A stretch of 64,000 nucleotides of DNA from Halomonas sp. TA22 (GTDB lineage Bacteria; Pseudomonadota; Gammaproteobacteria; Pseudomonadales; Halomonadaceae), in assembly GCF_013009075.1 (NCBI RefSeq), contig NZ_CP053108.1, forward strand, positions 1-64,000, written 5' to 3'. Positions within the stretch are counted from its first letter, which is position 1; every line of letters begins with the position of its first letter. Under the pieces are notes generated by a model, which was not told the DNA's origin, made no database searches, and worked only from the letters and a program-made list of their open reading frames with translations. Below, in pieces: positions 20,332-37,411 of this stretch. Position numbers and translations under genes: made by a program.

Positions 20332-21669
20332 TTAGCCGCCTATCAGCCACGCCTCGGCACGCTCCACCTGCTGCCTGGCACTACCAATGTATAAGGCGGG
20401 CTCCGATGCCTGCTCCAATGCGCTGGGCTCGACTCTCCCCTTCAACTCCGCATGTCCCGCCAGTACTTCGGCATAGGGCCGACGCTCGAGGCGTGCCGTC
20501 TCGGCAGCCTCGGCGCTGATGCGCTTGGCGGCGTCCTGCCCGACGATGGGTGCCAGCAGCCGCGATACCGGCTCGGCCATGATCGCTCCGCCGGTGATGT
20601 CCAGGTTACGGCGCATGGCGTCGGGATTGACTTCAAGTCCCTCGAGCAGTACCGCCGCCTGCTCGAGCGCCCCCTCGAGCAGCAGGACGCTATCGACGAG
20701 CGGCGCCCACTCGGCATGCCATTCCCCCAGGCCACGCTCCAGCGGCTGGGCGGCGGCGTTGAGGATCACCGTGGTGTGGCCATGGATCTGGCGACAGGCG
20801 CCCCGGATCAGCGCGCAGCGCACCGGGTTACGTTTATGGGGCATCGAGGAGGACTCGCCCATGCCCTCGCCGCCGGGCTCGGCGACCTCACCGACCTCCG
20901 TCTGGGTCAGCAGCGAGAGGTCCAGCGCCAGTTTTTCAGTGGCACCAGCCATGGCGTCCAGCGCCGTCATCAGTGCATGGATGGGCTGCCGATCGGTGTG
21001 CCAGGGCAGCACTGGGGAGGCCAGCTCGAGACGTTCGGCCAGGTCGTCCATGAACTCGAGCCCCAGCTCGTCCCAACCAGAGTGCACCCCCACGGCGCCA
21101 CCAAACTGTACCGGCAGGCCGGAGAGCTTGAGTGGCGCGAGACGTCGACGTGCCTGCTCGAGCCCCAACGCCCACTGCGCCACCTTGACGCCGAAGGTGG
21201 TCGGCAGCGCCTGCTGCATCAGGGTGCGCCCCACCATCACGGTGCCGGCGTGGGTCTGCATGAGAGTCACCGCCGCCTGGCGACAGCGTCCGGCCAGCGC
21301 GTCGAGCGTCGCCAGGCGCGGCTTGAGCAGCAGCATCAGCGCGCTGTCGACCACGTCCTGACTGGTCGCCCCCTGATGCCAGTAGCGCTTGAGCTCGTCG
21401 GGTAGCGCCGCACGGCCCTGCTTGACGAAGGGGATGGCGGCATTGCCGCCACTGGCGATGCCGTGCGCGATGGCATCGATATCGAACGCATGGCCACGCA
21501 GGTACTCGGCCATGCGCAGGCTGACGCCCTCAGGCAGCGCGCCGCGAGCTTCCTGTACCTCGGCAAGGCCCAACTCGAAATTCAGCATCGCCTCGACCAT
21601 CGCTTCGGCGTTACATTCGGCAAGCCCCCCCTGGCTCATGAAGGGGTACTGGATAAGCTCGGCAGGCAT
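20332..21669 (-). CDS. pcaB: 3-carboxy-cis,cis-muconate cycloisomerase
   Basis: The 445-residue fumarase/aspartase-superfamily enzyme carries the signature GESSSMPHKRNPVRC near residue 275 and TSQDVVDSAL near 110. It cyclises 3-carboxymuconate to 4-carboxymuconolactone. It is transcribed away from pcaR with a palindromic operator in the gap, and has its own terminator before the pcaI operon. So pcaB and pcaIJF-DC are separate units probably under the same regulator. Confidence 0.95.
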   Translation of the reverse strand: MPAELIQYPFMSQGGLAECNAEAMVEAMLNFELGLAEVQEARGALPEGVSLRMAEYLRGHAFDIDAIAHGIASGGNAAIPFVKQGRAALPDELKRYWHQGATSQDVVDSALMLLLKPRLATLDALAGRCRQAAVTLMQTHAGTVMVGRTLMQQALPTTFGVKVAQWALGLEQARRRLAPLKLSGLPVQFGGAVGVHSGWDELGLEFMDDLAERLELASPVLPWHTDRQPIHALMTALDAMAGATEKLALDLSLLTQTEVGEVAEPGGEGMGESSSMPHKRNPVRCALIRGACRQIHGHTTVILNAAAQPLERGLGEWHAEWAPLVDSVLLLEGALEQAAVLLEGLEVNPDAMRRNLDITGGAIMAEPVSRLLAPIVGQDAAKRISAEAAETARLERRPYAEVLAGHAELKGRVEPSALEQASEPALYIGSARQQVERAEAWLIGG

Positions 21670-21719
21670 CGCGGAATCTCCCTATGGCCGGTAAGGCCTT
21701 CGTCTTAAGTCGCACAATT

Positions 21720-21734
21720 GTTCGCACTTCGAAC
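21720..21734. promoter_or_regulatory. Palindromic PcaR-type operator between pcaB and pcaR
   Basis: GTTCG (21720-21724), 5 bases, CGAAC (21730-21734): a perfect palindrome, flanked by T and A to give TGTTC-N7-GAACA as before pcaI. A third half-site at the 19-base distance was looked for and not found. It would serve both pcaB and the regulator gene. Confidence 0.65.
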
Positions 21735-21788
21735 ATTATGCTAGATTCTACGCATTCAGAGATGCAACTCGGCAAGGATAAAGACTCA

Positions 21789-22580
21789 ATGGAAGTCCCC
21801 GTGCAGGAAGAGACACTGAGCCCGGATGATCGCGACTTCGTCACCGCCCTGGCGAGCGGCCTTGAGGTGATCCTGGCCTTCGATGGCGCCAACCCGCGCA
21901 TGACGCTGAGCGAGGTAGCCACCCGTACCGGCATGAACCGCGCCCGGGCCAGGCGTTTTCTGCTGACGTTGCATGCCTTGGGCTATGTACGCAAGCAGAA
22001 CCGCCACTTCGAGCTGGCCCCCAAGGTGCTGCAACTCGGTTACGCCTTCCTCTCGGCCAACAACTACCGCAGCGTGATCCAGCAGTATCTCGAGGACATC
22101 ACTGCCGAGATCGGCGAATCCTCGTCGCTCGGCGTGCTCGATGGCGACGATGTGATCTATGTGGCGCGCTCGGCGGCGAGTCACCGGCTGATGGCGATCT
22201 CCCTATCGGTCGGCACCCGCCTGCCAGCGGCGCACACCTCCATGGGGCGGGTATTGCTGGCACAGCTCACCGATGCAGAACTCGACGCCTACCTCGAGCG
22301 CGTGGTTCTGGAGCGCTATACCGACAAGACCGTGGCCGACAAGCAGGCGCTGCACAAGTGCATCCTCAAGGTGCGCAAGCAGGGCTACGCGATCTCCGAT
22401 CAGGAACTCGACTCCGGGCTGCGATCGCTGGCGGTGCCCGCCTTCGATGCCAACGGAAGGCTGCTTGGCGCGATCAATATCAGCACCAATGCCGCGCGTA
22501 TCGACCTCGACACCCTGACCGGCAGCTTCCTGCCGCTGCTTCAGCAGAAGGCGCAGCTGATCCGCACGCATATCAGTTGA
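21789..22580 (+). CDS. pcaR: IclR-family regulator of the pca regulon
   Basis: The 263-residue protein has an IclR winged helix (SGLEVILAFDGANPRMTLSEVATRTGMNRARARRFLLTL region) and effector domain (LPAAHTSMGRVLLAQL, YAISDQELDSGLRSLAVPAFD) of the PcaR/PcaU/PobR group. PcaR senses 3-oxoadipate in Pseudomonas; PcaU senses protocatechuate. ATG 21789 has AAGGA upstream; the frame also offers an ATG at 21738, inside the operator region. It is divergent from pcaB. Three matching operators in the window suggest it also controls quinate genes. Confidence 0.85.
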   Translation: MEVPVQEETLSPDDRDFVTALASGLEVILAFDGANPRMTLSEVATRTGMNRARARRFLLTLHALGYVRKQNRHFELAPKVLQLGYAFLSANNYRSVIQQYLEDITAEIGESSSLGVLDGDDVIYVARSAASHRLMAISLSVGTRLPAAHTSMGRVLLAQLTDAELDAYLERVVLERYTDKTVADKQALHKCILKVRKQGYAISDQELDSGLRSLAVPAFDANGRLLGAINISTNAARIDLDTLTGSFLPLLQQKAQLIRTHIS

Positions 22581-22641: not shown

Positions 22642-23421
22642 ATGGCTCGCAGCTTGATCGAGCGCACTCTCGGCGTTCTGGAAGCGCTCTCCAGCGATGC
22701 CCGCGGGCTACCGCTGCAGAGCATCGCCGAGCGTCTGGAGATCCCCAAAAGTGCCGCACACCGTATCTGCAACGAGCTGATTCGCTTGGGTTACGTGCGT
22801 CAGGATCCCGCCAGTCACTACTATCTGCTCTCCACTCGGCTGATGGCCATGGGCTTTCACTACATGGCGATCAGCGGGACCAGCGACATCGTCCAGCCGA
22901 TCCTCGACCACCTCGCAGCCGAAAGCGGCGAGATGGTCCGCCTGGGCGTCATCGAAGGTAACCGGCAGATCTGGATCGCCAAGGCACAGGGCGCGCGCAG
23001 CGGACTGCGCTACGACCCCGACATGGGGCGCGAGGCACCGCTCAACTACACCGCATCGGGCCATGCCTGGCTGGCAAGCCTAAGCGATGAAGAGGCCATC
23101 GACCTGGTCGAGGCGCAGGGTGTCGGCAATCCCGATGACTATGGGCCCAATGCCGTACGCAGCCATGCCGAGCTGCTCGAGCGTCTCGAGCAGGCCCGGA
23201 CCAACGGCTACAGCTGGCAGGTGGACAATGCCGCGGCAGGCACCTCGGCGCTGGCGGCTGTCGTGCGCCATCCACGCGATGGGCATGTCATCGGTGTATT
23301 GAGCATCGCCGGCCCCAGCGTGCGCCTCACCAAGACGCAGATGCACACCCTGGCGCCGCTATTGCTCAATGCCGCGGCGGAACTCTCCCAGACCAGCCAG
23401 GCATCGAAGGTCTTCTCGTGA
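22642..23421 (+). CDS. IclR-family regulator of unknown target
   Basis: The 259-residue protein has an N-terminal winged helix (RTLGVLEALSSDARGLPLQS, IPKSAAHRICNELIRLGYV) and an IclR effector domain with the NYTASGHAWLASL motif. It lies 61 bases after pcaR on the same strand and 42 bases before an AEC permease, so the permease is its likely target. It may also act on the flavoprotein genes at 27 kb, whose promoter has a palindrome. The ligand is unknown. Confidence 0.8.
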   Translation: MARSLIERTLGVLEALSSDARGLPLQSIAERLEIPKSAAHRICNELIRLGYVRQDPASHYYLLSTRLMAMGFHYMAISGTSDIVQPILDHLAAESGEMVRLGVIEGNRQIWIAKAQGARSGLRYDPDMGREAPLNYTASGHAWLASLSDEEAIDLVEAQGVGNPDDYGPNAVRSHAELLERLEQARTNGYSWQVDNAAAGTSALAAVVRHPRDGHVIGVLSIAGPSVRLTKTQMHTLAPLLLNAAAELSQTSQASKVFS

Positions 23422-24437: not shown

Positions 24438-25376
24438 TTACTCCGGCAGCGCCTCTCGCCAGCGATCCCAGGGCGGAACAGGATCCAGCGACTCGAACAG
24501 GTAGTCGAGAAACGCGCGGACCTTGCGTGAGCGAAGACGCCGTTCGGTGGTCAGCACGTGGATGTCGCGGCGCCCCGGCATGACCTCGCAACGCCAGGAT
24601 TCGAGCAGCGCGACCAGCGCGCCGGACTCAAGCTCGTCGGCAATCAGCCAGGTCGGAAACATCACCAGCCCCTGACCCAGCAGGGCGGCCTGGGCCAGGC
24701 TTAAGGCATCGTTGCTATAGAGATTGCCGGAGACCTCGAAAGGCGTGGCACTGGATTGATCCGGTGCCTGAAAGTACCAGCGCTGGCGGCCCATCTCGCC
24801 CTGATAGAGTAGACAGTTGTGATTGGCGAGCGCCTGCGGCGACTCGGGCTCGCCATGCGCCTGAAGATAGCTCGGCGCCGCGGCGGTGACGTAGTTCATC
24901 GGCGCCAGGCGGCGCGCAACCAGCGACGAATCCGGGAGATCCCCCACGCGGAAGGTGACGTCGTGCCCTTCGCGAACCGGATCGATCACGCGGTCGTCAA
25001 GCTGCAGTTCGGTCTTGAGCGAGGGATAGCGACACTGAAAGCGGTGCAGCAGTGGCACGATCTGGCGCTGGCCGAAAGCCACCGGCGCGTTGATGCGCAG
25101 CATGCCGCTGGGCTCGGCGTCTGGATGCGCCAGCGCCTCCGTGGCGAAGTCGAGCCGCTCCAGGATATCGCGGACCTCCTCGTAATAGCGCCAGCCCGCC
25201 TCGGTGAGCGTCACGGCACGGGTATGTCGATAGAGCAGCGGCTGGCCCACGGCCTCTTCCAACCCTCGAATCTGCCGGGAAATGGAGGAGACGGCGCGCT
25301 GGAAGTGGCGGCCGGCGGCAGTGAAGCTTCCCGTGGCGGCGACCCGCTCGAAGACGCGCAGGGCGTTGAGGTCCAT
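24438..25376 (-). CDS. LysR-type regulator divergent from a PRISE-like reductase
   Basis: The 312-residue protein starts MDLNALRVFERVAATGSFTA with recognition helix RAVSSISRQIRGLEE, of the subgroup that usually regulates a neighbouring oxidoreductase. The effector domain ends in VRAFLDYLFESL. ATG 25376 is preceded by AAGGGA; an earlier ATG at 25406 has no good ribosome-binding site. It faces the reductase at 25519, its probable target. Confidence 0.78.
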   Translation of the reverse strand: MDLNALRVFERVAATGSFTAAGRHFQRAVSSISRQIRGLEEAVGQPLLYRHTRAVTLTEAGWRYYEEVRDILERLDFATEALAHPDAEPSGMLRINAPVAFGQRQIVPLLHRFQCRYPSLKTELQLDDRVIDPVREGHDVTFRVGDLPDSSLVARRLAPMNYVTAAAPSYLQAHGEPESPQALANHNCLLYQGEMGRQRWYFQAPDQSSATPFEVSGNLYSNDALSLAQAALLGQGLVMFPTWLIADELESGALVALLESWRCEVMPGRRDIHVLTTERRLRSRKVRAFLDYLFESLDPVPPWDRWREALPE

Positions 25377-25518
25377 CGAACTGATATCCCTTGAGTTGCG
25401 TTTCATGCAATAAAGATTTGCACTCTTTTCGATTGTAGCAATGAACGAGCGTGACCAGAATGCCTGCATCGGCTACTCGCTTTGGGAGCCAGACAGCACT
25501 CACGAAAGGAGACAGTAC

Positions 25519-26577
25519 ATGCGCAAAGGTACCGCACTGGTCGTCGGCGCCACCGGGATTACCGGTGGCAATCTGGCGTCCTACCTGGTGGCCAGTGGTT
25601 GGACGGTCTACGGGCTTTCTCGCCGCGCGACCGAGCAGAGCGGCGTGATGCCGGTTGCCGCGGATCTGCTTGACGAGTCGGCGACCCGAGAGGCGCTGGC
25701 CGGCCTGCCGATCACCCATGTCTTCTACTGCACCTGGATCCGTCGCGACAACGAGAAAGCCAACGTCGAGGCCAACAGCGCCATGATGCGCAATCTCTTC
25801 GCGGCGCTCAGTGACGCCGATCTGCAGCACGCCTCGCTGGTCACGGGAACCAAGCAGTATCTCGGTTCGTTCGAAGCCTACGGCAGCGGGCGCACCGAGA
25901 CGCCGTTCCGTGAATCCGAGCCTCGCGTCCCCGGCGACAACTTCTACTATGCGCTGGAGGATGTCCTGTTCGAAACCGCTGAGCGTCAAGGCTTTGCCTG
26001 GAACGTGCATCGTCCGCATACGGTGATCGGCTACGCCCGCGGCAACGCCATGAACATGGGCACCACGCTTGCCGTCTACGCATCGATCTGCAAGGCGACC
26101 GGCAAGCCCTTCGTGTTCCCAGGCTCGCAGATTCAGTGGAACGCGCTGACCGATATGACCGACGCGCTGGTGCTGGCGCGCCAGATGGAGTGGGCCGCGA
26201 CGACGCCGGGGGCGGCAAACCAGGCATTCAACACGGTCAACGGTGACGTCTTTCGCTGGCGCCGCATGTGGCGCGAGATCGGCGAATACTTCGGTCTCGA
26301 CGTGGCGGACTGCCCCGACACGCCCCAGCCGCTGGAAACACAGATGTCCGGGGTCGACGTGACCTGGCGTGAAATTGCCGAGACGCATGATCTGGTCGAG
26401 CCGGACGTCGCCAAGCTCGCCTCCTGGTGGCACACCGATGCCGACCTGGGTCGCGACCAGGAGTGCGTCAACGACACCACCAAGTCACGCGATTTCGGTT
26501 TCGACCATTTCCGCGAGACCCGCGGTGCGTTCTTCGACCTGTTCGATCGCCTGCGTGCCGAGAAGCTCATTCCCTGA
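25519..26577 (+). CDS. SDR-family NAD(P) reductase, PRISE-like
   Basis: The 352-residue extended short-chain dehydrogenase has VVGATGITGGNLASYL at the N-terminus and the features of the PRISE group (progesterone 5-beta-reductase/iridoid synthase): TWIRRDNEKANVEANSAM, TGTKQYLG, and NFYYALEDVL with the catalytic tyrosine. PRISE enzymes reduce activated C=C bonds of enones. AAAGGAG precedes ATG 25519. It stands alone with its LysR regulator; the substrate is unknown. Confidence 0.8.
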   Translation: MRKGTALVVGATGITGGNLASYLVASGWTVYGLSRRATEQSGVMPVAADLLDESATREALAGLPITHVFYCTWIRRDNEKANVEANSAMMRNLFAALSDADLQHASLVTGTKQYLGSFEAYGSGRTETPFRESEPRVPGDNFYYALEDVLFETAERQGFAWNVHRPHTVIGYARGNAMNMGTTLAVYASICKATGKPFVFPGSQIQWNALTDMTDALVLARQMEWAATTPGAANQAFNTVNGDVFRWRRMWREIGEYFGLDVADCPDTPQPLETQMSGVDVTWREIAETHDLVEPDVAKLASWWHTDADLGRDQECVNDTTKSRDFGFDHFRETRGAFFDLFDRLRAEKLIP

Positions 26578-26991: not shown

Positions 26992-27219
26992 ATGCCCTCA
27001 CTCGCTATTGACGTGATCGGTGCCGGGGCAATGGACCACCAACTGGAGCATTTCATCGATGTCGCGCATGGCACCTCTGCCCCCAGAGTCAGCGCCCTGG
27101 ATGCCGGGCGCACCCTGGCATTGGTCGATGCCGTGGCACGCGCAGCCGATAGCGGCCAATGCGTGACGCCTACTGCACTGGGAGACGCTTGGCATGACCA
27201 CGCAGACATGCACTTTTGA
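26992..27219 (+). pseudogene. Collapsed Gfo/Idh/MocA-type oxidoreductase: N-terminus fused to C-terminus
   Basis: The 75-codon frame begins MPSLAIDVIGAGAM, the first strand and glycine-rich turn of a Rossmann dehydrogenase. It continues directly into HQLEHFIDVAHGTSAPRVSA and LDAGRTLALVDAVARAADSG, typical of the end of Gfo/Idh/MocA oxidoreductases. Some 250 codons between are absent, while the frame is kept. Its 3' end overlaps the start of the flavoprotein gene by 26 bases. It could still be translated from the promoter at 26953 and couple ribosomes to that gene. Confidence 0.55.
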
Positions 27220-28915
27220 TTTGGTGGTAGTGGGCTCCGGCGCCGCCGGGCTTGCCGCCGCTGTCAGCGCCGCCCACCAGGGGCTAGAGGTCGCAGTGGT
27301 GGAGAAGGCCGAGACCCTGGGCGGTGCCACCGCTTGGTCCGGTGGCTGGATGTGGGCCCCGCTCAATCCCCTGGCCCGTGCCGCCGGCATCAAGGAGGAC
27401 CCTGAGACGGTACGCACCTATCTGCGCCATGAGCTGGGCGAACGTTATGATCCGGCCAAGATCGACGCCTTCCTCGCCACCGCGCCGCAGATGGTCGCGT
27501 TCTTTCACGACAATACCGCCCTGCAGTTTGCCGACGGCAACGCCATCGCCGATATCCACGGCGACACCCCCGGCGCCGGCACCGGCGGGCGCTCGGTGAT
27601 CGCCGCCCCCTTCGATGCCCGCGAGCTGGACCGCGCGACGCTGGCCAAGCTGCGCCGGACCATGCCCGAGACCGCCTGGATCGGCATGCCGATCCAGGCT
27701 GGGCCGGACCTTGCAGCGTTTCTCAACGTCAGCCGCTCGCTGAGTTCCTTCATCCATGTCGCCAGGCGCGTCAGCCGCCACCTGTATGACCTGGCCCGCT
27801 ACGGCCGCGCCATGCAGCTAGTCAACGGCGTGGCGCTGATCGGCCGGCTAGCCAAATCCGCCGCCGCGCTGGGCGTAGAGCTGCGCGTGGCCTCGCCGGC
27901 GAAACGGCTGCTCCATGATGGCGAGCGGGTCAGCGGCGTGGTGGTGGAAGCCTCGGACGGCGAGCTGATCCTCAACGCCCGGCGTGGCGTGGTATTGGCC
28001 GCCGGCGGCTTCCCCTGGGACGTCGAGCGCCGCCGCGAGCTCTTCCCGCGCACGCCCACCGGTGAGGAGCACTGGCCGCTGCCGCCGAGCTCCGCCAGCG
28101 GCGACGGCCTGCGCCTGGGCGAAGCCGTCGGCGCCAGCGTCGATACCAGCCTCTACTCGCCAGTGGCCTGGGCACCGGTGTCACTGGTGCCGTGGCGTGA
28201 TGGTCGGATCGGCCACTTCCCCCACATCATCGACCGCGGCAAGCCCGGCATCATCGGCGTGCTCAGCAACGGCCAGCGCTTCGTCAACGAGGCCAGCGGC
28301 TACTATGACTACATCGATGCCATGCTCAAGGCGGTGCCGGAAGATGAGGAGGTCTGCTCCTGGCTGATCTGCAGCCACCGCTTCCAGCGCCGCTACGGCC
28401 TCGGCATCAGCCGCCCGGCACCGCTGCCCTTCCGGCACTGGGTCCGCAAGGGCTATCTCAAGCGCGGCCGAACGCTTGCCGAGCTGGCCCAGGCATGCGG
28501 TATCGACCCCGCAGGACTCGAGCGGACCGTGGCGGCCTACAATGCATCAGCCCGACACGGCGAGGATCCCGAATTCGGCCGCGGCACGACCCCTTATAAC
28601 CGCAAGCAGGGCGACCCGGCCCACGGCCCCAATCCCTGCGTGGCACCCCTTGAGCGCGGGCCGTTCTACGCCGTCAAGGTGGTGCCCGGCTGCTTCGGCA
28701 CCTTCGCCGGCCTAAGGACCAACGAGCACGCCCAGGTGCTGGATGCCCAGGGCCAGCCGATCGTCGGCCTCTATGCGGCGGGCAGCGACATGGCCAGCAT
28801 CATGGGCGGCCACTACCCGGCTGGCGGCATCAATCTCGGCCCGGCCATGACCTTCGGCTTTATCGCCGGGCGCCACGCCGCCCAGACATCCCTGTCAGCG
28901 AGGCCTGACCGATGA
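27194..28915 (+). CDS. FAD-dependent dehydrogenase, ketosteroid-dehydrogenase/fumarate-reductase family
   Basis: The 573-residue flavoprotein has the FAD motif VVGSGAAGLAAAVSA near 12-26, the ELGGATAWSGGWMW-type segment (TLGGATAWSGG), GVVLAAGGFPWD, and the C-terminal GGHYPAGGINLGPAMTFGFIAG closing motif. The family desaturates rings or reduces C=C bonds (3-ketosteroid delta-1-dehydrogenase, fumarate and urocanate reductases). No signal peptide is seen, so it is cytoplasmic. It overlaps a TIM-barrel gene by 4 bases (ATGA), and an EamA carrier follows. The substrate is unknown; the quinate cluster beside it suggests an alicyclic acid. Confidence 0.8.
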   Translation: MTTQTCTFDLVVVGSGAAGLAAAVSAAHQGLEVAVVEKAETLGGATAWSGGWMWAPLNPLARAAGIKEDPETVRTYLRHELGERYDPAKIDAFLATAPQMVAFFHDNTALQFADGNAIADIHGDTPGAGTGGRSVIAAPFDARELDRATLAKLRRTMPETAWIGMPIQAGPDLAAFLNVSRSLSSFIHVARRVSRHLYDLARYGRAMQLVNGVALIGRLAKSAAALGVELRVASPAKRLLHDGERVSGVVVEASDGELILNARRGVVLAAGGFPWDVERRRELFPRTPTGEEHWPLPPSSASGDGLRLGEAVGASVDTSLYSPVAWAPVSLVPWRDGRIGHFPHIIDRGKPGIIGVLSNGQRFVNEASGYYDYIDAMLKAVPEDEEVCSWLICSHRFQRRYGLGISRPAPLPFRHWVRKGYLKRGRTLAELAQACGIDPAGLERTVAAYNASARHGEDPEFGRGTTPYNRKQGDPAHGPNPCVAPLERGPFYAVKVVPGCFGTFAGLRTNEHAQVLDAQGQPIVGLYAAGSDMASIMGGHYPAGGINLGPAMTFGFIAGRHAAQTSLSARPDR

Positions 28916-29739
28916 CCCCGCCGTTTTCTCTCGCCGCTCTCACCGTGCTCGAGCTATCGCCCGTGGAGATGGTCGAGGTCGCCGCCCGTGTCGGCTATGA
29001 CGGGGTGGGCCTGCGGCTGATCCCCGCCACGTCGGAGGAGCACCACTATCCGCTGGCCAGCGATGCCGGCCTGCTGCGCCGGACCCGCCAGCGCCTCAGC
29101 GACACCGGCCTCAAGGTGGTGGATATCGAGATTCTGCGCCTCACGCCGAATAGCGAGGTGACTCGCGACTTCCAGCGGGTGCTGGAGGTCGGCGCCGAGC
29201 TGGGCGCCAGCGAGGTTCTGGTGGCCGGCAACGATGACGATGCCGTACGCACCCTCGACAACTTCATGGCGCTGTGCGAGCTGGCCCGCCCGCTGGGTCT
29301 GCATCCGCACCTTGAGTTCATGCCCTGGACCGGCGTCAAGGACCTGCCCCAGGTCCAGCAGCTGGTCGCCGCAGCCCGCGAGGCGGGGCACGACAACGCC
29401 TGCCTGCTGGTCGATGCCTTCCACTTCAACCGCTCGCGCAGCCGCCTGGAAGACCTCACCGAGGTGCCCCACGCCTGGCTGCGCTACCTGCAGCTGTGCG
29501 ACGTGGCGGGCCCGGTACCCGACGACATGGATGAGATCTTGCATCAGGCGCGCCAGGCCCGCTGCTTTCCCGGCCAGGGCGATATCGACCTCACCGCAAT
29601 GCTGGCAGCAATGCCGCGCGACATTCCCCACAGCCTTGAGATCCCTACCCAGGCGCTGCGCGAGCGCGGCGTCAGTGCCCTGCAGCGGGCCAGCCGAGCG
29701 CTAGAGGCGGCACAGCGTCTGGTGGGAGTAGCGCATTAG
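28912..29739 (+). CDS. TIM-barrel protein of the sugar phosphate isomerase/epimerase family
   Basis: The 275-residue protein is an AP-endonuclease-2-like barrel with candidate metal ligands: the glutamates in VDIEIL and HLEFMPW, the aspartate and histidine in LLVDAFHFNRS, and the final glutamate in SLEIPTQ. The fold is shared by xylose isomerase-like proteins, IolE/IolI and 3-dehydroshikimate dehydratase. GQGDIDLTAML resembles the FPGQGRLPL segment of the QuiC protein at 32 kb. It is translationally coupled to the flavoprotein and probably acts on the same substrate. Confidence 0.78.
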   Translation: MTPPFSLAALTVLELSPVEMVEVAARVGYDGVGLRLIPATSEEHHYPLASDAGLLRRTRQRLSDTGLKVVDIEILRLTPNSEVTRDFQRVLEVGAELGASEVLVAGNDDDAVRTLDNFMALCELARPLGLHPHLEFMPWTGVKDLPQVQQLVAAAREAGHDNACLLVDAFHFNRSRSRLEDLTEVPHAWLRYLQLCDVAGPVPDDMDEILHQARQARCFPGQGDIDLTAMLAAMPRDIPHSLEIPTQALRERGVSALQRASRALEAAQRLVGVAH

Positions 29740-29802
29740 TCGACATATCGTTAGTCTGCTAGGGTTAAACCTCACTTCCCTCACTTCTTAACCGGGAGCC
29801 TC

Positions 29803-30699
29803 ATGGCGACACCCTCCAGCCTCAGCGCACCGCTGCCCGGCGACCGCCCGCTACATGGCATTGCCTTCATGCTGGCCGCCGGGATTCTGTTCGTGATGCT
29901 CGATACCGGCGTCAAGCTGCTTGGCCAGGGCTATTCGCCGGTGCAGGTGGTCTGGGCGCGCTATGCCGGGCACATGGTGCTGCTGGGGGGGTATCTTGCC
30001 ACACTAGGGCTGCCGCGCTGTCGTGCGCTGATGGTAACGGAGTCGCTCGCCGGCCAGGTGCTGCGGGGCTTGCTGCTGTTCGCCGCCAGCACCTTCGCCT
30101 ACCTGGCACTGCGCGACCTGCCGCTGCTGCAGGTCTATGTGGTCAATTTCAGTGCTCCCCTGCTGGTCACCCTGCTGGCCATTCCCCTGCTCAAGGAGCG
30201 GGTCAGCCCGGCCCGGGGCATGGCCGTGGCGATCGGTTTCGTCGGCGTCATCATCGCCGTGGGGCCGATCGACTGGCGAGCCCAGCCCGCCGCGTTGCTG
30301 CCGTTCGGCATGGCCCTGTGCTTCGCCCTCTACCAACTCTGCACGCGACGCTTCGGGCGTGCCGACCACCCGCTCACCTCGCTGTTCTACGCAGGCCTGG
30401 CCGGCGCTCTGGTGAGCTGCGCCGTCGTACCCTGGTTCTGGACGCCCATTGCCCTCGGCGATGCGCCACTGTTCCTGGCCGTGGGCGTGCTGGGCGCGGT
30501 CAGCCAACTGGCGCTGATCATGGCGATGCGCTGCGCGCCGGCCTCGCTGGTCTCGCCGTTTCTCTATCTGCAGATCGTCTGGGCGTCGGCCGCCGGCTAC
30601 CTGGTGTTCGGCGATGCGCCGCAACTCACGACCTACCTGGGCGCCGTACTGATCATCGCTGCGGGAATCTTCCTGGCGACCCGCAAGCACGCCCCTTGA
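29803..30699 (+). CDS. EamA/DMT-family membrane transporter
   Basis: The 298-residue protein has about 10 membrane segments in two EamA repeats (FMLAAGILFVMLDTGVKLL in the first, LLPFGMALCFALYQLCTRRF in the second). It is 63 bases behind the TIM-barrel gene on the same strand and probably moves the substrate or product of that pair. Direction and substrate cannot be told. Confidence 0.8.
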   Translation: MATPSSLSAPLPGDRPLHGIAFMLAAGILFVMLDTGVKLLGQGYSPVQVVWARYAGHMVLLGGYLATLGLPRCRALMVTESLAGQVLRGLLLFAASTFAYLALRDLPLLQVYVVNFSAPLLVTLLAIPLLKERVSPARGMAVAIGFVGVIIAVGPIDWRAQPAALLPFGMALCFALYQLCTRRFGRADHPLTSLFYAGLAGALVSCAVVPWFWTPIALGDAPLFLAVGVLGAVSQLALIMAMRCAPASLVSPFLYLQIVWASAAGYLVFGDAPQLTTYLGAVLIIAAGIFLATRKHAP

Positions 30700-30758: not shown

Positions 30759-31202
30759 TTATCGGCTCGCCTTTATCACGGCATCCAGTGCGGCTTGGTA
30801 GCCTTGGCTGCCAAGCCCGGCGATCACGCCATCGGCACGCAGCGAGACGTAGGAGTGATGGCGAAAGCTCTCGCGCTTGTGCACGTTGGAGAGATGCACT
30901 TCTATCACCTTGCCCTCAAAGGCGTTGAGTGCGTCGAGGATCGCCACCGAGGTGTGGGTATAGGCCGCGGGGTTGATGATGATCGCCACGGTGCCGTCGA
31001 GACGCGCGGCATGAATGGCGTCGATCAGCTCACCCTCATGGTTGCTCTGCCGCGATGTGATGTCCCAGCCATTGATCGCCGCTTTCTCGTAGAGGCTGTT
31101 GTTGATGTCATTGAGCGTCTCGTAGCCGTAGATTTCCGGCTGGCGCGTGCCCAGCAGGTTGAGGTTGGGGCCATGCAGCACCAGCACCTTGCCTGAACTC
31201 AT
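30759..31202 (-). CDS. aroQ: 3-dehydroquinate dehydratase type II
   Basis: The 147-residue protein has the type II pattern: [19 protein letters not shown] with the catalytic arginine and tyrosine, [12 protein letters not shown], and [20 protein letters not shown] with the histidine. It dehydrates 3-dehydroquinate to 3-dehydroshikimate. Here it overlaps a shikimate dehydrogenase by 4 bases and follows QuiC, so it should serve quinate breakdown rather than biosynthesis (a role called QuiB). Confidence 0.95.
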
Positions 31203-32065
31203 GCGTCGTTCTCCTTGAGCAGTTCGCGCTTGTAGTGGGCAAACAGCGTCGCCGACTGTTGCTCTGCCGCAGCGCGCTTGTCGGCATCCTCGCAGAACAG
31301 CTTGAAGGCGTCCACGCCCTGGAACACGAACAGGCTGACGCCGCTCATCACGCTCGCCCCTGCCGCCTTGGCGGCGGCGACGAACTCGGTCACTGCCGGC
31401 ACGTAGACGGCATCGAATATCCAGTGGTGTGACTGGATCAGCGCCTTGGGCAGCGGACAGCCGGGGCTTTTCTCATGCCCGATCGGCGTGCAGTTGACCA
31501 GACCGTCGCACGTGGGAATGGTCTCGGCCAGTTGAGCGTGGGAAATGGCCGAGGCCTTGAACCCTTGCGCCTTGAGTTCATCGGCGAGCTGTCGCGACTT
31601 GGTCTCATCGAGATCCATCAGGATCACCTCGTCGGCCCCCAGCTTGCCGAGGCCAAAGGCTGCCGCCTTGCCCACGCCGCCGGTGCCGATCAGCAGCACA
31701 CATCCGGGCTGGCGCTCGCCGAACGTGGCACGAAACCCACTCATGAAGCCGGTATAGTCGGTATTCTCGGCGACGATGCCATCACGTTCGAACACCAGGG
31801 TATTGGCGGCGCCAACCATGCGCGCCCCTTCGGAGGGACGATCGGCGAGCTTCACCGCCTCCTCCTTCCAGGGGAAGGTGACATTGACGCCGCGATACCC
31901 CTCACTGATCACTTTGCGCACCTGGCTTTCCAGTGACTCGATGGGCTGTTCGTTGGCATCGAACAAGTCGTAGGTGGCGGGAATGCCGGTGAGCTTGCCG
32001 AGCCGCACGTGCAGGTCGGGCGAGCTTGAGTTCATGATGGCCTTACCGATCAAGCCAAGACGCAT
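31199..32065 (-). CDS. Quinate/shikimate dehydrogenase, NAD-preferring type
   Basis: The 288-residue AroE-family enzyme has NSSSPDLH (substrate serines), the catalytic lysine in [10 protein letters not shown], the aspartate in ENTDYTGF, and the nucleotide motif [19 protein letters not shown]. An aspartate follows in [11 protein letters not shown], where NADP-dependent AroE has the NRT motif; this favours NAD and a catabolic role. It links quinate and shikimate to their 3-dehydro forms. It is sandwiched between quiC and aroQ in one operon. No PQQ-type quinate dehydrogenase is seen. Confidence 0.88.
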
Positions 32066-32107: not shown

Positions 32108-33952
32108 CTAACGCTGGGTTGCTTGCGCAGCCAGGCGAATGCCGGCATTGGCGGCGCCGAACTGGTGGTAACCGCCACGTCTCTCGACGATCTCGAAGAA
32201 AAAGCGTCCCGAGAAGGTTTCGGTATAGGCGTGGAAGAATTCGCCCTCGTCGCTGCGGTCATACAGGATGTTACGCGTGCGCAGCGCCTCCAGCAGCGCC
32301 TCATCGAGCCCGTAGCGCGCCTCCAGATCGTCGTAGTAGTTGCGCGGAATCTTGAGCAGCGGCAGCCCGCGGGCCAGCAAGGTATCGACGGAGGCGAAGA
32401 TATCATCGCTCTCGAAGGCAATCTGTTGCACGCCGCCCTGAAACTGGCTGAGGAAGCGTCCCGGCAGCGTCTCGCTGGCCTGGGAGATGGTCAGTGGAAT
32501 GCGGATCGAGCCATCCGGGCTGGTCACCGCCTGGCTGACCATCAAGCCGCGTGGATCGACGATCTCGTGCTCCGCCTCGGCATCGAAGCCGAACACCGTG
32601 CGGTAAAAGAGCTGCCAGCCCAGCATCTGAGTCGCCGGCAGCACGTAGGAGAGATGGTCGACCCGCTTGAGCCCAGCCTCGTCGCGGCTCGCCTGATCGA
32701 ACAGCTCGAAATCGGTGCGCCACTGCAGGTCGCTGGCGGCCTCCTTGTCGACCAGGTAGACCAGGCTGCCCTCGATACCACGCAGCGCCGGGATCTCCAT
32801 CTCGCCCTCGCCGATCTGGCTGCGGAAGGTCTGGGCCTGAAAAGCCTTGGCACGCGCCAGGGAGGTCTGCAGATTGTCGACCTGGAAGCCCACCGCACAC
32901 ACCGAGGTGCCGTGCAGCAGACGAAAGGTGTGCGCGAAGCTGTCGGTCTCGAAGTTGAGCACCAGGTGGATGGCGCCCTGTTTCCACAGCTCGACATTCT
33001 TGGAGCGGTGACGGCCGACGTGGCGAAAGCCCAATGCCCCGATGAATTCGCCAAGCGGCGCGGCGCTCTCCTCGTCGAGGGTGAACTCGATGAAGTGGAT
33101 GCCGGCATAGTGCGGCGGCGGGGGAATCTCGCCCGCCCAGCGGCCCTCCTCCACCAGATTCTCGAGCAGGATCAGCGAGCGCAGGCCGTCGCGAGCGGTG
33201 GCCTGGGCGGGCCCGGCGCGGAAGGCGTCGTTGAATATCTCGAGCGATAGCGGGCCGTCATAGCCGGTCTTGGAGAGCTCGGTCATGAAGGCCTTGAGCG
33301 GCAGGCGCCCCTGGCCCGGAAAGCAGCGGAAGTGCCTGCTCCACTGCAGAATATCCATGTCGAGTTGCGGCGCATCGGCAACCTGCACGAAGAACAGCTT
33401 CTCGCGCGGGATTTTGGCGATGGTGGAGAGATCGTGGCCACGCGAGAGGATATGGAAACTGTCGAGCACGATGCCCAAGGAGGGATGGTCGGCCCTGCGC
33501 ACGACCTCCCAGGCGTCGCGGTAATCGGAAATATGCCGCCCCCAGGCCAGCGCCTCGAAACCGATGCGAATGCCGCGCTTGGCCGCGCGTTCGGCCAGTT
33601 CGCGCAGGTCCTCGGCGGCCCGGTCCAGGCTATCGATGCACTGTGGCGAGACGTTGCTGCACACTAGCAAGAAATCGGTGCCGAGCTCCTCCATCAGGTC
33701 GAACTTGCGCTCGGCACGTTGCATGTTGCGGCTGCGCTGGGGCTCCGGCATCGCTTCGAAATCGCGAAATGGCTGGAAGGCGATGATCGCCAGATTGAGT
33801 GACTTGCACAGCTCGCGCAGCTCCGCGGGGGGGCCACCGAAGGAGAGCAGGTCGTTCTCGAATATCTCCACGCCCTCGAAGCCGGCACGTGAAATGGCTT
33901 CCAACTTGGATCTCAGATCCCCACTCAGGGAGACGGTGGCAATGGCGCGCAT
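32108..33952 (-). CDS. quiC: 3-dehydroshikimate dehydratase with HPPD-like C-terminal domain
   Basis: The 614-residue protein has two parts. Residues 1-280 form a TIM barrel with metal ligands in GFEALAWG, LDSFHILS, FVQVADAP and LSLEIFND, as in QuiC/AsbF dehydratases that form protocatechuate. Residues 290-614 form a VOC region like 4-hydroxyphenylpyruvate dioxygenase (VDHLSYVLP, VQQIAFESDDI, FFEIVERRGGYHQFG). The same two-domain layout is known from QuiC1 of Pseudomonas putida. GGAG precedes ATG 33952. It is the first gene of the quinate operon, divergent from tctC. Confidence 0.9.
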   Translation of the reverse strand: MRAIATVSLSGDLRSKLEAISRAGFEGVEIFENDLLSFGGPPAELRELCKSLNLAIIAFQPFRDFEAMPEPQRSRNMQRAERKFDLMEELGTDFLLVCSNVSPQCIDSLDRAAEDLRELAERAAKRGIRIGFEALAWGRHISDYRDAWEVVRRADHPSLGIVLDSFHILSRGHDLSTIAKIPREKLFFVQVADAPQLDMDILQWSRHFRCFPGQGRLPLKAFMTELSKTGYDGPLSLEIFNDAFRAGPAQATARDGLRSLILLENLVEEGRWAGEIPPPPHYAGIHFIEFTLDEESAAPLGEFIGALGFRHVGRHRSKNVELWKQGAIHLVLNFETDSFAHTFRLLHGTSVCAVGFQVDNLQTSLARAKAFQAQTFRSQIGEGEMEIPALRGIEGSLVYLVDKEAASDLQWRTDFELFDQASRDEAGLKRVDHLSYVLPATQMLGWQLFYRTVFGFDAEAEHEIVDPRGLMVSQAVTSPDGSIRIPLTISQASETLPGRFLSQFQGGVQQIAFESDDIFASVDTLLARGLPLLKIPRNYYDDLEARYGLDEALLEALRTRNILYDRSDEGEFFHAYTETFSGRFFFEIVERRGGYHQFGAANAGIRLAAQATQR

Positions 33953-34356
33953 ATTGTTCTCCGCATGGAGCATGTTGATGAGGGGCGCCCTTGTCGAGAC
34001 ACCCAGCGTAGCGAGGCTGTTCTATTTATTTTGCCAACCCCGTCCCGGCCGACCCGCTTGGCAGCGTCGCTGCTGACGGTTACCACCTTGCGAGGCTCTC
34101 CTATTACACTAGCGCGTCCCGGCTAAGCCGTTGGAGTAGACCTCGGCTCTGCTCGAAGCCAATAGAGCCTTACTACCTTGGTCGCAACGGGACAATGATG
34201 CATTGACAGTTTTGGAAAGGAATTCTAGTTTGTTCGCTATCAGCACGCAAGTTCGTTAGCCGAACAGAATCACTGCACAATTCAATACCAAAAGGCGTCG
34301 ACAATCGGTCAAGATCGGCTTAATCAGACAATAACCAGACGCCCCCGGAGGACACT
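33953..34356. other. Intergenic control region between quiC and tctC
   Basis: This 404-base gap separates divergent quinate and TTT-carrier operons. It holds a three-half-site IclR-type operator at 34232-34265, listed separately. The part from 33974 to 34200 shows no gene and no strong hairpin. The GGAGG before tctC lies at 34348-34352. Confidence 0.6.
34232..34265. promoter_or_regulatory. Three-half-site PcaR/PcaU-type operator between quiC and tctC
   Basis: GTTCG (34232-34236), N14, GTTCG (34251-34255), N5, CGAAC (34261-34265). The spacing equals that before pcaI (20199-20232), and all three half-sites match the consensus. It is about 90 bases before tctC and 280 bases before quiC, so it may control one or both operons. 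Confidence 0.65.
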
Positions 34357-35358
34357 ATGCCAAGATTGACTCTTACCGGCCTGACGCTCGCCATCGCCTC
34401 GCTAGGCATGGCGGGCAGTGCCATGGCCGACTATCCGCAACGCAACATCCAAGGCACCATCCAGTGGGGTGCCGGTGGCGCCACCGACAACATCATCCGC
34501 AGCCTGACCCCGCATGTGGAGGAGGAACTCGGCACCACCCTGGTACTGACCAACCGCCCCGGTGGCACCGGCGTGATCGGCATGAATCACGTGATGCGCC
34601 AGCGGTCGGATGGCTACAACCTGCTGTTCGGCGCCGAGAATCCCCAGCTCTATCCGGTGATGGAGCTGGCCGATTTCACCTATGACGACATGCATACCGT
34701 CAATATCATCGGCCAGGGCCTGGTGGTGATCGCTACCCATCCGAACAGCCCCTTCGACACCTTTGCCGAGTTGCTCGAGTACGCCCATGAGAATCCGGGT
34801 GAGTTGCGCATGGGGGGTACCGGTGCCGGTGGCTTGCCAAGCACCATTCACGCCATGATCAACGCGGTGGACGAGCTCGACGTGCGTACCGTCACCTTCG
34901 GGGGCGATGGCCCAGGCGTTACCGCCATGCTCGGCGAGCATATCGACTTCATGCCACTGAGCCTCTCCGCTGTCGCCGAGCAGATCCGTGGTGGCCGCCT
35001 CAAGGGCCTGGCCGTGATCAATAGCGAGGAAATCGAGGAGCTGCCTGGCGTGGCGCCGATCACCGAGGCGCTGCCGGCGATCGAATCCTTTCTGCCCTGG
35101 GGGCCGTTCTGGGGCGTCTTCGTGCATCAGGACACGCCTGACGAGATCAAGACGCGCCTCGAGGAGGCCTACCAGAATGCCGTGGCGACAGACGAGTTCC
35201 AGTCGTTTCTCGATAACTTCGGCGCCGCGTCGCTGAACCTGCGCGGCGAAGAGGCGCAGGAGTATCTAAATAGCTGGCAGTCGGTGTCCGCCTGGTCGAT
35301 GTTCGACGCAGGTGCCGTCGAGGTATCGCCGGAAGAGCTGGGCATTCCACGCCCCTAA
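34357..35358 (+). CDS. tctC: TTT-carrier periplasmic binding protein (TctC family)
   Basis: The 333-residue protein has a signal peptide cut after SAMA, then the TctC pattern (YPQRNIQGTIQWGAGGATDN, VVLTNRPGGTG-type segment TLVLTNRPGGTGVIGMN, GGDGPGVTAMLGEHIDFM). It binds a carboxylate in the periplasm for the tctBA membrane part that follows. Being divergent from the quinate operon and behind the same operator type, it may carry quinate, shikimate or protocatechuate. Confidence 0.88.
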   Translation: MPRLTLTGLTLAIASLGMAGSAMADYPQRNIQGTIQWGAGGATDNIIRSLTPHVEEELGTTLVLTNRPGGTGVIGMNHVMRQRSDGYNLLFGAENPQLYPVMELADFTYDDMHTVNIIGQGLVVIATHPNSPFDTFAELLEYAHENPGELRMGGTGAGGLPSTIHAMINAVDELDVRTVTFGGDGPGVTAMLGEHIDFMPLSLSAVAEQIRGGRLKGLAVINSEEIEELPGVAPITEALPAIESFLPWGPFWGVFVHQDTPDEIKTRLEEAYQNAVATDEFQSFLDNFGAASLNLRGEEAQEYLNSWQSVSAWSMFDAGAVEVSPEELGIPRP

Positions 35359-35416
35359 GTCACTAATTGCCACAAGGCGCGAAGGGCATGCTGTCCCTCG
35401 CGCCTTGGAGTCTTGC

Positions 35417-35893
35417 ATGAACAAGCGATTCGAACGAGTCCAGGCGGGTGAGAAGCTATTCGACTGGTTGCTCTGTCTCTTCAGTATCGGGGTGCTCATC
35501 GAGGCCTACCGTATCGATGGTGCCTTCAGGCTCAACTCCGGCGGCTCCTTTCCGACCGGGCTGGCCCTGATCATGCTGGCCGCCTCGGCGGTCATTCTGG
35601 TCAGCCACCGCCGCAAGCGGCGCGATCCCGAGATCACCTCGTTCACTCAGGAAACCAAGGTGTTCCTCAAGGAGCACTTCAAGCCACACATCGTGGTCTT
35701 CTCGCTCGTGTCGATGGCCTACCTGGCCGCCATCAACTGGTTCAGCTTCTTCGTCAGCACCTTCATCTTCCTGGCGGTGCTCTTCATCTACTACCGCGGT
35801 GGCAAGATACTCAGCTCGCTGGTCATCACCGGCGTGGCCATCGCGGTGATCTATGTGCTGTTCACCATGGTATTCCGCGTCTATCTTCCCTGA
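35417..35893 (+). CDS. tctB: TTT-carrier small membrane subunit
   Basis: The 158-residue protein has four hydrophobic segments (near residues 13-28, 40-57, 90-125 and 130-155) as in TctB. Start MNKRFERVQAGEK at 35417; the longer frame overlaps tctC's end without a better signal. It lies between tctC and tctA on the same strand. Confidence 0.85.
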   Translation: MNKRFERVQAGEKLFDWLLCLFSIGVLIEAYRIDGAFRLNSGGSFPTGLALIMLAASAVILVSHRRKRRDPEITSFTQETKVFLKEHFKPHIVVFSLVSMAYLAAINWFSFFVSTFIFLAVLFIYYRGGKILSSLVITGVAIAVIYVLFTMVFRVYLP

Positions 35894-35908: not shown

Positions 35909-37411
35909 ATGAGTGATACGCTCTCCTATCTGCTCATGGCCTGGCTGGACCCGGGCCTGCTTGGCCTGACGGCACTCGGCGTCCTGGCCGGCATCTACAT
36001 CGGTGCGATACCGGGTCTCTCCGTGACCATGGCCGTCTCGATCCTGATCTCCTTTACCTTCTCGTGGAACATCGACAGTGCCCTGGCGCTGATGGTGGGA
36101 ATCTACGTGGGCGGGGTCTACGGCGGCTCGCGCACCGCCATCCTGCTCAACATTCCCGGTGCTCCATCGGCGGTGACCACGGCCTTCGACGGCTACCCCC
36201 TGGCCCTGCGTGGCGAAGCGGGTCGCGCCATCGGCCTGAGCACCATCATGTCGGTGATCGGCGGGCTGATCGGGGTGGCGGTACTCGCCGGCACCGCGCC
36301 CTACCTCTCGGATCTCGCGCTGCAGTTCGCCCCTCGTGACTACTTCCTGATCGCCATACTCGGCCTGCTGCTGGTCAGCTCGCTCTCCGGCAAGTCGTTG
36401 GCGCGCGGCATCTTCGCCGTGGCACTGGGTGCCATCATCGGCCTGGTGGGCATGGATCCGATCACCGCCCAAGGACGCCTGACGCTTGGCAACATGGAGC
36501 TGCTCGGCGGCATTCACTACGTGGTGGTGATGATCGGGCTGTTCGGGGTGGCCGAGGCGTTCTATCAGCTGCATAACATGACCAAGGTCCCGGTCAAGCA
36601 GAAGGTCAGCAAGATCCTGCCGCCGCTGAGCATGGTGCTGAAGTTCCTGCCGCTCTCGATTCGCACCTCATTGATCGGGGTCGTGGTCGGCGCGCTCCCT
36701 GGCACCGGCGGCGACATCGCCTCGCTGTTCGCCTACGACCACGCCAAGCGCACGGTCAAGAATCCCAGCAGTCCGTTCGGCGAAGGCGCCTACGAGGGGC
36801 TGGTGGCCCCGGAGACTGCCAACAATGCCGCGGTCGGCGGCGCCTACGTGCCGATGCTGACGCTAGGCATGCCGGGTGACGCCGTGACGGCGGTGATCAT
36901 CGGGGCGCTGGTGATTCACGGCCTCAATCCCGGCCCGATGCTGATGATCGAGACGCCGCATATCTTCTGGTTCACCGTCGGCAACCTGGCGCTGGCCAAC
37001 ATCTTCCTGCTGGTCTTCGGCCTGACCGGCATCAAGATCTTTTCCAAGATCGTCGAGGTGCCCAAGGCGATACTGATCCCGCTGATCCTGGTGCTGTGTG
37101 TGGTGGGGACCTACTCGATCAACAGCAATATGATGGAAGTCTACTGGATGCTCGGCTTCGGCATACTCGGCTACTGGCTCAAGGTATTCGGTTTCCAGAT
37201 GGGGCCGATCATCCTCGGTGTGATCCTTGGCCCGCTGCTGGACGAATCCTACCGCCAGGCGATGTCCTCGGTCGGCGACAATGCCACCAGTTTCCTCTCG
37301 GCATTGGTCACCAACCCCTTGTCGCTCATATTGACCAGCGTGATCGTGCTGGTGCTGCTCGGCAATACGCCACTCAAGGGGTGGATCAAGGCAAGAGTGG
37401 GACGCAGCTAA
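35909..37411 (+). CDS. tctA: TTT-carrier large membrane subunit
   Basis: The 500-residue protein has about 11-12 membrane segments and the conserved TctA motifs GIYIGAIPGLSVTMAV, YVGGVYGGSRTAILLNIPGAPSAVTTAFDG, GALPGTGGDIAS and ETANNAAVGGAYVPMLTLGMPGD. It is the transport channel of the system. It follows tctB by 15 bases. A second, paralogous set is at 53.5-56.5 kb. Confidence 0.93.
   Translation: MSDTLSYLLMAWLDPGLLGLTALGVLAGIYIGAIPGLSVTMAVSILISFTFSWNIDSALALMVGIYVGGVYGGSRTAILLNIPGAPSAVTTAFDGYPLALRGEAGRAIGLSTIMSVIGGLIGVAVLAGTAPYLSDLALQFAPRDYFLIAILGLLLVSSLSGKSLARGIFAVALGAIIGLVGMDPITAQGRLTLGNMELLGGIHYVVVMIGLFGVAEAFYQLHNMTKVPVKQKVSKILPPLSMVLKFLPLSIRTSLIGVVVGALPGTGGDIASLFAYDHAKRTVKNPSSPFGEGAYEGLVAPETANNAAVGGAYVPMLTLGMPGDAVTAVIIGALVIHGLNPGPMLMIETPHIFWFTVGNLALANIFLLVFGLTGIKIFSKIVEVPKAILIPLILVLCVVGTYSINSNMMEVYWMLGFGILGYWLKVFGFQMGPIILGVILGPLLDESYRQAMSSVGDNATSFLSALVTNPLSLILTSVIVLVLLGNTPLKGWIKARVGRS

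Follow-up and report, generated by a model that had tools for sequence, protein, structure and literature searches.

The flavoprotein and the TIM barrel considered here are encoded by adjoining genes beside a quinate/shikimate cluster in a 64,000-nucleotide stretch of Halomonas sp. TA22 DNA (NZ_CP053108.1, positions 1 to 64,000; hereafter the window), and several described enzymes resemble one or the other. The flavoprotein shares its fold, and the equivalents of Tyr318, Tyr487 and Gly491, with the 3-ketosteroid dehydrogenases KstD1 and AcmB and with cyclohexanone dehydrogenase. It belongs to the same family as ChcC1 and ChcC2, the 4-oxocyclohexane(ene)carboxylate dehydrogenases (NF053676, NF053677), and is predicted, like them, to desaturate an oxo ring acid. 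The closest relatives of the barrel are QuiC1/QsuB, the 3-dehydroshikimate dehydratase (5HMQ); Lmo2234 of Listeria monocytogenes (2G0W, titled putative sugar isomerase); and IolI (1I60), which we take to be an inosose isomerase. To our knowledge, the quinate or shikimate route requires neither the flavoprotein nor the barrel, and the ChcC route has no dehydratase-like barrel partner. No description of this gene set was found among the open-access papers listed, in agreement with a preliminary description of the locus, which knew of no pathway with such a set.

The flavoprotein, the barrel and an EamA carrier lie where they were first described (Table 1), and aroQ, quiB and quiC1 follow them. 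The flavoprotein and barrel reading frames overlap by 4 bp (ATGA), so that the translational coupling proposed for them is plausible; the barrel and EamA genes are 63 bases apart. We tentatively view the pair as an accessory branch of quinate/shikimate catabolism (quiB, quiC1, aroQ, pcaHG), on the strength of linkage and co-occurrence. The branch would act on a hydroaromatic acid that is reduced or has lost some of its oxygens, our best guess being dihydroshikimate or 3,4-dihydroxycyclohexanecarboxylate. While the arrangement of the genes is confirmed, this interpretation of it is plausible and has comparative support, and the substrate is one that we infer.

Co-occurrence of the barrel with QuiC1

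Co-occurrence was examined in two sets of genomes with tests that ignore shared ancestry. Among 151 Halomonadaceae genomes, QuiC1 (E 1e-100 or better) was present in 39, which included 14/14 of the genomes with the barrel compared to 25/137 of the others (Fisher 7.6e-10). QuiC1 lay within 21 kb of the barrel on the same contig in 13 of these 14, as read by hand. A phylum sample of 398 genomes gave a similar result. Here the barrel (E 1e-35 or better) was found in 19 genomes and QuiC1 (best E 1e-90 or better, a cut of our own) in 69, three of them with partial matches; QuiC1 was present in all 19 barrel genomes but in only 50 of the other 379 (Fisher 3.5e-16). Reading by hand placed it within 25 kb of the barrel, on the same contig, in 12 of the 19. 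In seven of the 19 the best barrel match reaches just 34-40% identity and possibly belongs to another subfamily. To ask whether the link to QuiC1 merely reflects the lifestyle of a protocatechuate consumer, we restricted the comparison to the 89 phylum genomes with pcaH, among them 16 of the 19 with the barrel. QuiC1 was present in 16/16 barrel genomes and 39/73 others (p = 3e-4). Linkage to quinate, shikimate and protocatechuate genes is supported.

The flavoprotein and the barrel also keep together. A flavoprotein orthologue (at least 72% identity) was found in 13/151 Halomonadaceae genomes and the barrel in 14/151, and all 13 orthologues adjoin the barrel or stand one small gene off. In the fourteenth barrel genome (G142, locus L018) the barrel is open and adjoins a flavoprotein remnant from which approximately residues 118-441 are deleted. 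Two further genomes (G152 and G167) have flavoproteins of only 42-52% identity and no barrel. The pairing is not due to chance. In the phylum sample, a flavoprotein was found near the barrel in 11 of the 15 barrel genomes inspected (15 of the 19 were covered).

Seventeen cluster-bearing genomes were searched for a dehydratase that could serve the ordinary route. Full-length QuiC1 was found in 15, and the other two, both Limnohabitans, have a single-domain dehydratase-like protein. Shikimate and quinate therefore look already covered in these genomes, and the simplest reading is that through the pair a related ring acid can enter as well.

Related loci in other genomes

The preliminary description had proposed looking for the pair elsewhere, and it recurs in Halomonadaceae, Pseudomonas, Alphaproteobacteria and Burkholderiales. 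A barrel scan of GTDB species genomes yielded 44 loci, 13 from Halomonadaceae (Halomonas, Billgrantia, Vreelandella or Litchfieldella) and three from Pseudomonas. The remainder are mainly from Alphaproteobacteria and Burkholderiales, with single contigs of metagenome-assembled genomes labelled Singulisphaera and Chloroflexota. A tree of 67 flavoproteins has three clades, assigned from the tree itself: A, which is the window type, B and C. A flavoprotein of the family clustered in 41/44 loci; clade A is represented in 36 of these, and the other five have members of other clades only. Of the remaining loci, L049 has no flavoprotein, L018 retains the deleted remnant and in L033 a piece lies at the edge of the contig. 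Within three genes of the barrel, the window included, a flavoprotein is found in 40/43 cases and an IclR regulator of cluster c2 in 26/43, c2 being the commonest regulator cluster near the barrel elsewhere.

An AroE paralogue, a second flavoprotein or a NIPSNAP domain often accompanies the pair, and 31/44 loci carry a gene of the AroE family. In one paralogue (cluster c3, 21 loci between L023 and L049) Val occupies the position of AroE Ser14 in 21/21, mostly within a QVKSP motif, and the catalytic Lys and Asp as well as the Asn are retained in 21/21; the group that includes the window QuiB has Ser at that position in 11/11. The AroE numbering and the roles of these residues (Ser14, Lys, Asp, Asn) are those we presume. 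The c3 paralogues may act as dehydrogenases on a modified shikimate. Another paralogue of this class lies at L070:3317-4165. A gene of its own encodes the NIPSNAP-domain protein in 13/44 loci, in 10 of which it stands between flavoprotein and barrel, while in 11 loci (L025, L028, L029, L032, L036 and L040-L045) the domain, by Pfam, is fused to the C-terminal end of the clade A flavoprotein. Genes of the surrounding pathways are also found: the QuiC cluster c13 in 10/44 loci, with a split QuiC in L033 in addition; LigB in 5/44 (L022 and L041-L044), together with LigA above cut-off in L041; and EamA cluster c5 in 14/44, mainly from Halomonadaceae and Pseudomonas. A quiC profile count (16/44) and a union count (38/44) were set aside, since that profile also detects the barrel, as observed in L018 and presumed for L014-L017.

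Ten further stretches were examined beyond the 44 loci. QuiC1, a tannase/feruloyl esterase, a flavoprotein of the PRK12843 (clade B) type and the barrel follow one another on one strand in L064. The esterase gene (L064:12302-14128) sits inside the cluster, between QuiC1 and the flavoprotein, which points to plant esters of quinate or shikimate as a possible source of its substrates. QuiB, QuiC1 and a TonB receptor adjoin the barrel, flavoprotein and an aromatic-acid-type carrier in L065, and L070 has an AroE paralogue, two flavoproteins, NIPSNAP and the barrel, with an IclR gene one gene further on.

The module varies and decays, in keeping with an accessory function: the window has a Gfo/Idh remnant as well as LysR and SDR genes between a carrier gene and the flavoprotein, and L018 has suffered its deletion.

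Metal site and relatives of the barrel

The preliminary description assigned the barrel to the fold that includes 3-dehydroshikimate dehydratase. QuiC1 is indeed the top Foldseek match (1.5e-15) of the predicted structure (pLDDT 95.8), followed by IolI (2.0e-15) and Lmo2234 (8.8e-15). Among the NCBIfam matches listed, the barrel has only the curated QuiC model, far below its cut-off at 47.6 of 1200 bits, and the HPPD-like second domain of QuiC1 is absent; the same cut-off is missed by the window QuiC1 (743 bits).

Active-site residues of QuiC1 were taken from an excerpt of a published list (PMC7442255). His168 and Arg210 of QuiC1 align to H171 and R217 of the barrel. Likewise, barrel E135, D168, Q194 and E243 align to E134, D165, Q191 and E239 of QuiC1, which we take to be its metal ligands. 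These six barrel residues are invariant in 43/43 sequences, as are R35, R76 and R174, so that the loss of metal ligands envisaged in the preliminary description as a point against the idea did not occur. The metal site is, on these alignments, of the QuiC1 type though not identical, because the six residues are kept while Ser206 of QuiC1 is replaced by Ala. The barrel is probably a metal-dependent dehydratase or ketone isomerase acting on a cyclohexanone carboxylate. On the predicted model, fold alone does not separate the two activities.

The barrel might simply duplicate the 3-dehydroshikimate dehydratase function, possibly as a single-domain protein related to the Listeria class QuiC2, with the flavoprotein performing an unrelated or minor step. 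Besides the retained QuiC1-type metal site, the sequence profile speaks for this, since the best solved relative of the barrel is Lmo2234 (2e-28), ahead of QuiC1 (6.5e-15) and IolI (1.2e-14). Lmo2234 shares LEFMP and QLCD segments with the barrel but only 21-24% identity. The references of PMC9324987 include a paper whose title announces QuiC2 in Listeria, a protein that may or may not be Lmo2234. We consider a second dehydratase unlikely, given that full-length QuiC1 or the single-domain dehydratase-like protein is already there in the genomes searched, that Ala replaces Ser206 in every barrel and that a flavoprotein is so regularly within three genes. The coexistence of the barrel with QuiC1 argues instead that its substrate is probably different. 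For the same reason the barrel is probably not just the ordinary dehydratase of the quinate route, a candidate function that we rejected as unlikely because one or other dehydratase was found in 17/17 genomes.

Alternatively, the barrel may be an isomerase that, like IolI, shifts a ketone, acting on an oxidised cyclitol or ring acid, in which case the flavoprotein would desaturate the isomerised ketone. The general active-site layout is shared with IolI, which has the top VIA Z (1i60, 30.1, compared to 29.9 for Lmo2234, 28.5 for QuiC1 and 26.0 for the next row). Moreover, a Gfo/Idh gene (c4) is present in 16/44 loci by clustering or 19/44 by profile, its best model being inositol 2-dehydrogenase (124 of 355 bits, below cut-off). 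However, the column of the third metal ligand holds Gln194 in 43/43 barrels, as in QuiC1, and not the His of IolI. That His we presume to be a metal ligand. The recurrent linkage is, furthermore, to QuiC1, AroE and protocatechuate genes, and no inositol cluster was seen among the annotated neighbour clusters. An isomerase of this kind seems to us a quite unlikely explanation.

Relatives and catalytic residues of the flavoprotein

Among the 25 NCBIfam models listed of 83 matched, PRK06134 is the only one for which the flavoprotein scores above the cut-off (929 vs 747 bits), and this subfamily carries no named function. ChcC2 (4-oxocyclohex-2-ene-1-carboxylate 5-dehydrogenase) is the top activity-named model among the matches listed, at 505 of 900 bits and well under its cut-off, ahead of ketosteroid models at 431 and 408 bits. 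Elsewhere in clade A the ChcC2 model scores 523 bits and the ketosteroid model 418 for the L019 flavoprotein, while for L023, an example of clade B, the two are alike (ketosteroid 431, ChcC2 418 bits). A ChcC2 search for direct comparison found 0/143 genomes of the class at 1e-180, and its control was likewise silent.

The predicted structure (pLDDT 92.5) is closest to AcmB (7P18; Z 53.8, 547 aligned, rmsd 2.1), followed by KstD1 (4C3X; Z 49.0) and cyclohexanone dehydrogenase (8AM3; Z 44.6). Excerpts of the source papers give the catalytic tetrad as Y119, Y318, Y487 and G491 in KstD1 (PMC8950399) and as Y195, Y376, Y570 and G574 in cyclohexanone dehydrogenase (PMC10966990). When residues were matched by alignment (chain numbers less 20, counted manually), Y370, Y541 and G545 of the flavoprotein corresponded to Y318, Y487 and G491 of KstD1 and were invariant in 67/67 sequences. 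Three of the four tetrad residues are retained; the position of KstD Tyr119 is Ile in the window flavoprotein. From its residues and relatives, the flavoprotein is probably a ring-ketone alpha,beta-dehydrogenase, placing a double bond in a ring ketone. It differs from KstD1, AcmB and cyclohexanone dehydrogenase in its gene context, in falling under the model cut-offs and, throughout clade A, in the missing Tyr119 equivalent.

Since the superfamily also includes fumarate and urocanate reductases and clade A lacks the Tyr119 equivalent, the enzyme might instead catalyse the reverse reaction, reducing an enone (one of the dehydroshikimate type, for instance) to dispose of electrons or for detoxification. 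We think this improbable, as the nearest structures and models are dehydrogenases and no cytochrome domain was found in the flavoprotein by Pfam. That the protein is a steroid- or terpenoid-ketone dehydrogenase placed beside the quinate cluster by chance is scarcely credible, despite the 3-ketosteroid dehydrogenase-like fold and residues, because the protein falls short of the three ketosteroid cut-offs listed (431 of 789, 408 of 788 and 312 of 793 bits) and the link with QuiC1 recurs in several families.

A steroid gene island was rejected as unlikely on the same two grounds. The preliminary description had asked whether the pair occurs mainly beside steroid genes, and no steroid cluster recurred among the annotated neighbour clusters, part of the neighbours having been annotated.

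A possible route to protocatechuate

The route that we infer for the pair would begin with uptake by the TctC system or the EamA carrier. A ring hydroxyl would then be oxidized to a ketone by a neighbouring AroE-type dehydrogenase, QuiB in the window and an AroE paralogue, SDR or Gfo/Idh enzyme elsewhere. Like QuiC1, the barrel would eliminate water beta to the ketone. The flavoprotein would remove two hydrogens from the carbons adjoining the ketone, giving protocatechuate. A ketone at C3 makes both the loss of the C5 hydroxyl and the removal of the C1-C2 hydrogens natural. The order could also be reversed, with the flavoprotein acting first to yield 3-dehydroshikimate and QuiC1 completing the sequence. 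Ring cleavage would follow by PcaHG in the window and by LigAB elsewhere. Where the preliminary description foresaw ring desaturation plus dehydration of a quinate- or shikimate-like compound, the catalytic residues and the linkage to QuiC1, AroE and LigB give it partial support; the substrate, the activities and the sequential action are putative.

A substrate of the dihydroshikimate type exists, since lactic acid bacteria are reported to make dihydroshikimic acid. Excerpts of two papers describe it as a product of quinic acid by way of shikimic acid (PMC13204703) and as formed from chlorogenic acid (PMC7427622).

Several observations weigh against the proposed accessory branch. The position of KstD Tyr119 is I, F, M or V in 37/37 clade A flavoproteins (Tyr in clade B 24/24 and clade C 6/6), and the chemistry of clade A may therefore differ. 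Five of the 44 loci (L022, L030, L031, L038 and L039), and L064 as well, have only a clade B-type flavoprotein. In the barrel, Ser206 of QuiC1 has become Ala213, before the RCFPGQG segment, in 43/43; R76 aligns to QuiC1 Arg64 without a gap in one alignment and not in another, so that this match depends on the aligner; and structurally the barrel is as near to IolI as to QuiC1. Four of the 15 phylum genomes inspected (L067, L068, L069 and L073) had no flavoprotein near the barrel by tblastn. Habitat could explain the co-occurrence with QuiC1, and so could joint transfer, since barrel and QuiC1 are physically linked. Finally, the TA22 genome has no second flavoprotein of this type, no AroE paralogue and no intact Gfo/Idh gene at the site. 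Its one strong flavoprotein match is the window copy, four others being short and weak (42 to 75 query residues). A NIPSNAP search of this genome gave no match, its control being likewise silent.

The pair probably allows many bacteria to use a related ring acid that has so far not been matched to these genes. A bolder proposal, possible but on balance doubtful, is that the loci represent a widespread undescribed aerobic route of Pseudomonadota from saturated hydroaromatic acids (dihydroshikimate and dihydroxycyclohexanecarboxylates) to protocatechuate, by which quinate and shikimate reduced by fermenters would be reclaimed. The tools of that route, subject to the same doubt as the whole, would be a keto-acid desaturase family (clade A, lacking the Tyr119 equivalent) that differs from KstD and ChcC, a barrel that is a new dehydratase or isomerase, and the Val-type AroE paralogue class. 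If true, functions would be gained for the PRK06134, PRK12839 and PRK12843 flavoproteins, the TIM barrel family, the AroE paralogue class and the flavoprotein-NIPSNAP fusions, which at present bear only generic labels. A gap in the carbon cycle, the aerobic use of reduced quinate and shikimate derivatives, would be closed, and enzymes with the potential to aromatise ring ketone acids would become available. Clear and cheap tests are feasible in culturable Halomonas and Pseudomonas strains.

Genes of the window

Table 1. Features of the pair, the quinate cluster and their surroundings in the window
Feature	Position	Strand	Evidence
FAD-dependent desaturase-like flavoprotein, 573 aa	27194-28915	+	Pfam FAD_binding_2 3e-102; PRK06134 subfamily (clade A)
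Xylose-isomerase-like TIM barrel, 275 aa	28912-29739	+	Pfam AP_endonuc_2 6.8e-18
EamA/DMT carrier, 298 aa	29803-30699	+	Pfam EamA 5e-19; cluster c5
Remnant, 75 codons	26992-27219	+	like C-terminal end of Gfo/Idh/MocA oxidoreductase (c4)
aroQ-type type II 3-dehydroquinate dehydratase	30759-31202	-	model score above cut-off
AroE-family quinate/shikimate dehydrogenase (QuiB)	31199-32065	-	PRK12549 235.6 bits, cut-off 235
QuiC1-type 3-dehydroshikimate dehydratase fused to HPPD-like domain	32108-33973	-	743 bits vs curated cut-off 1200
TctC of tripartite tricarboxylate-type uptake system	34357-35358	+	Pfam
Small membrane protein, tripartite tricarboxylate-type uptake system	35312-35893	+	order and sequence
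TctA of tripartite tricarboxylate-type uptake system	35909-37411	+	order and sequence
IclR-family PcaR/PcaU-type regulator	21684-22580	+	model score above cut-off
Second IclR-family regulator, cluster c2	22642-23421	+	122 of 285 bits, PcaR/PcaU model
pcaH, protocatechuate 3,4-dioxygenase	9019-9750	-	above cut-off
pcaG, protocatechuate 3,4-dioxygenase	8353-8985	-	above cut-off
pcaB-like 3-carboxy-cis,cis-muconate cycloisomerase	20332-21669	-	TIGR02426 309 of 356 bits, below cut-off

The Gfo/Idh-like remnant had no match in a Pfam search; it is 44% identical to an L029 protein over 43 aa (E 3e-7, in a small database). The genes of the uptake system correspond to clusters c11, c21 and c25 of the locus comparison; the last two Tct components in Table 1 (35312-35893 and 35909-37411) are presumed to be such from gene order and sequence. 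A LysR gene and a PRISE-like SDR gene (24438-26577) separate the flavoprotein from a carrier gene at 23464, which from its sequence we take to be of the AEC type; carrier gene and flavoprotein directly adjoin in 10/13 Halomonadaceae loci.

In other genomes, the dehydratase and HPPD-like halves of QuiC1 are separate but adjacent, with the C-half first, at four sites (G004:C3:322446-324127, G011:C12:146102-147798, G007:C51:198400-200077 and L033:8709-10372), and G007 holds the full fusion besides the split form. In L067 and L068 a more distant relative of the barrel lies near QuiC1 and no flavoprotein accompanies it; in L067 the genes after it encode an acylating aldehyde dehydrogenase-like enzyme and an acetolactate-synthase-like TPP enzyme. 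Close to pcaHG, the window also carries a salicylate 1-monooxygenase-like gene (5832-7136) that scores above its cut-off.

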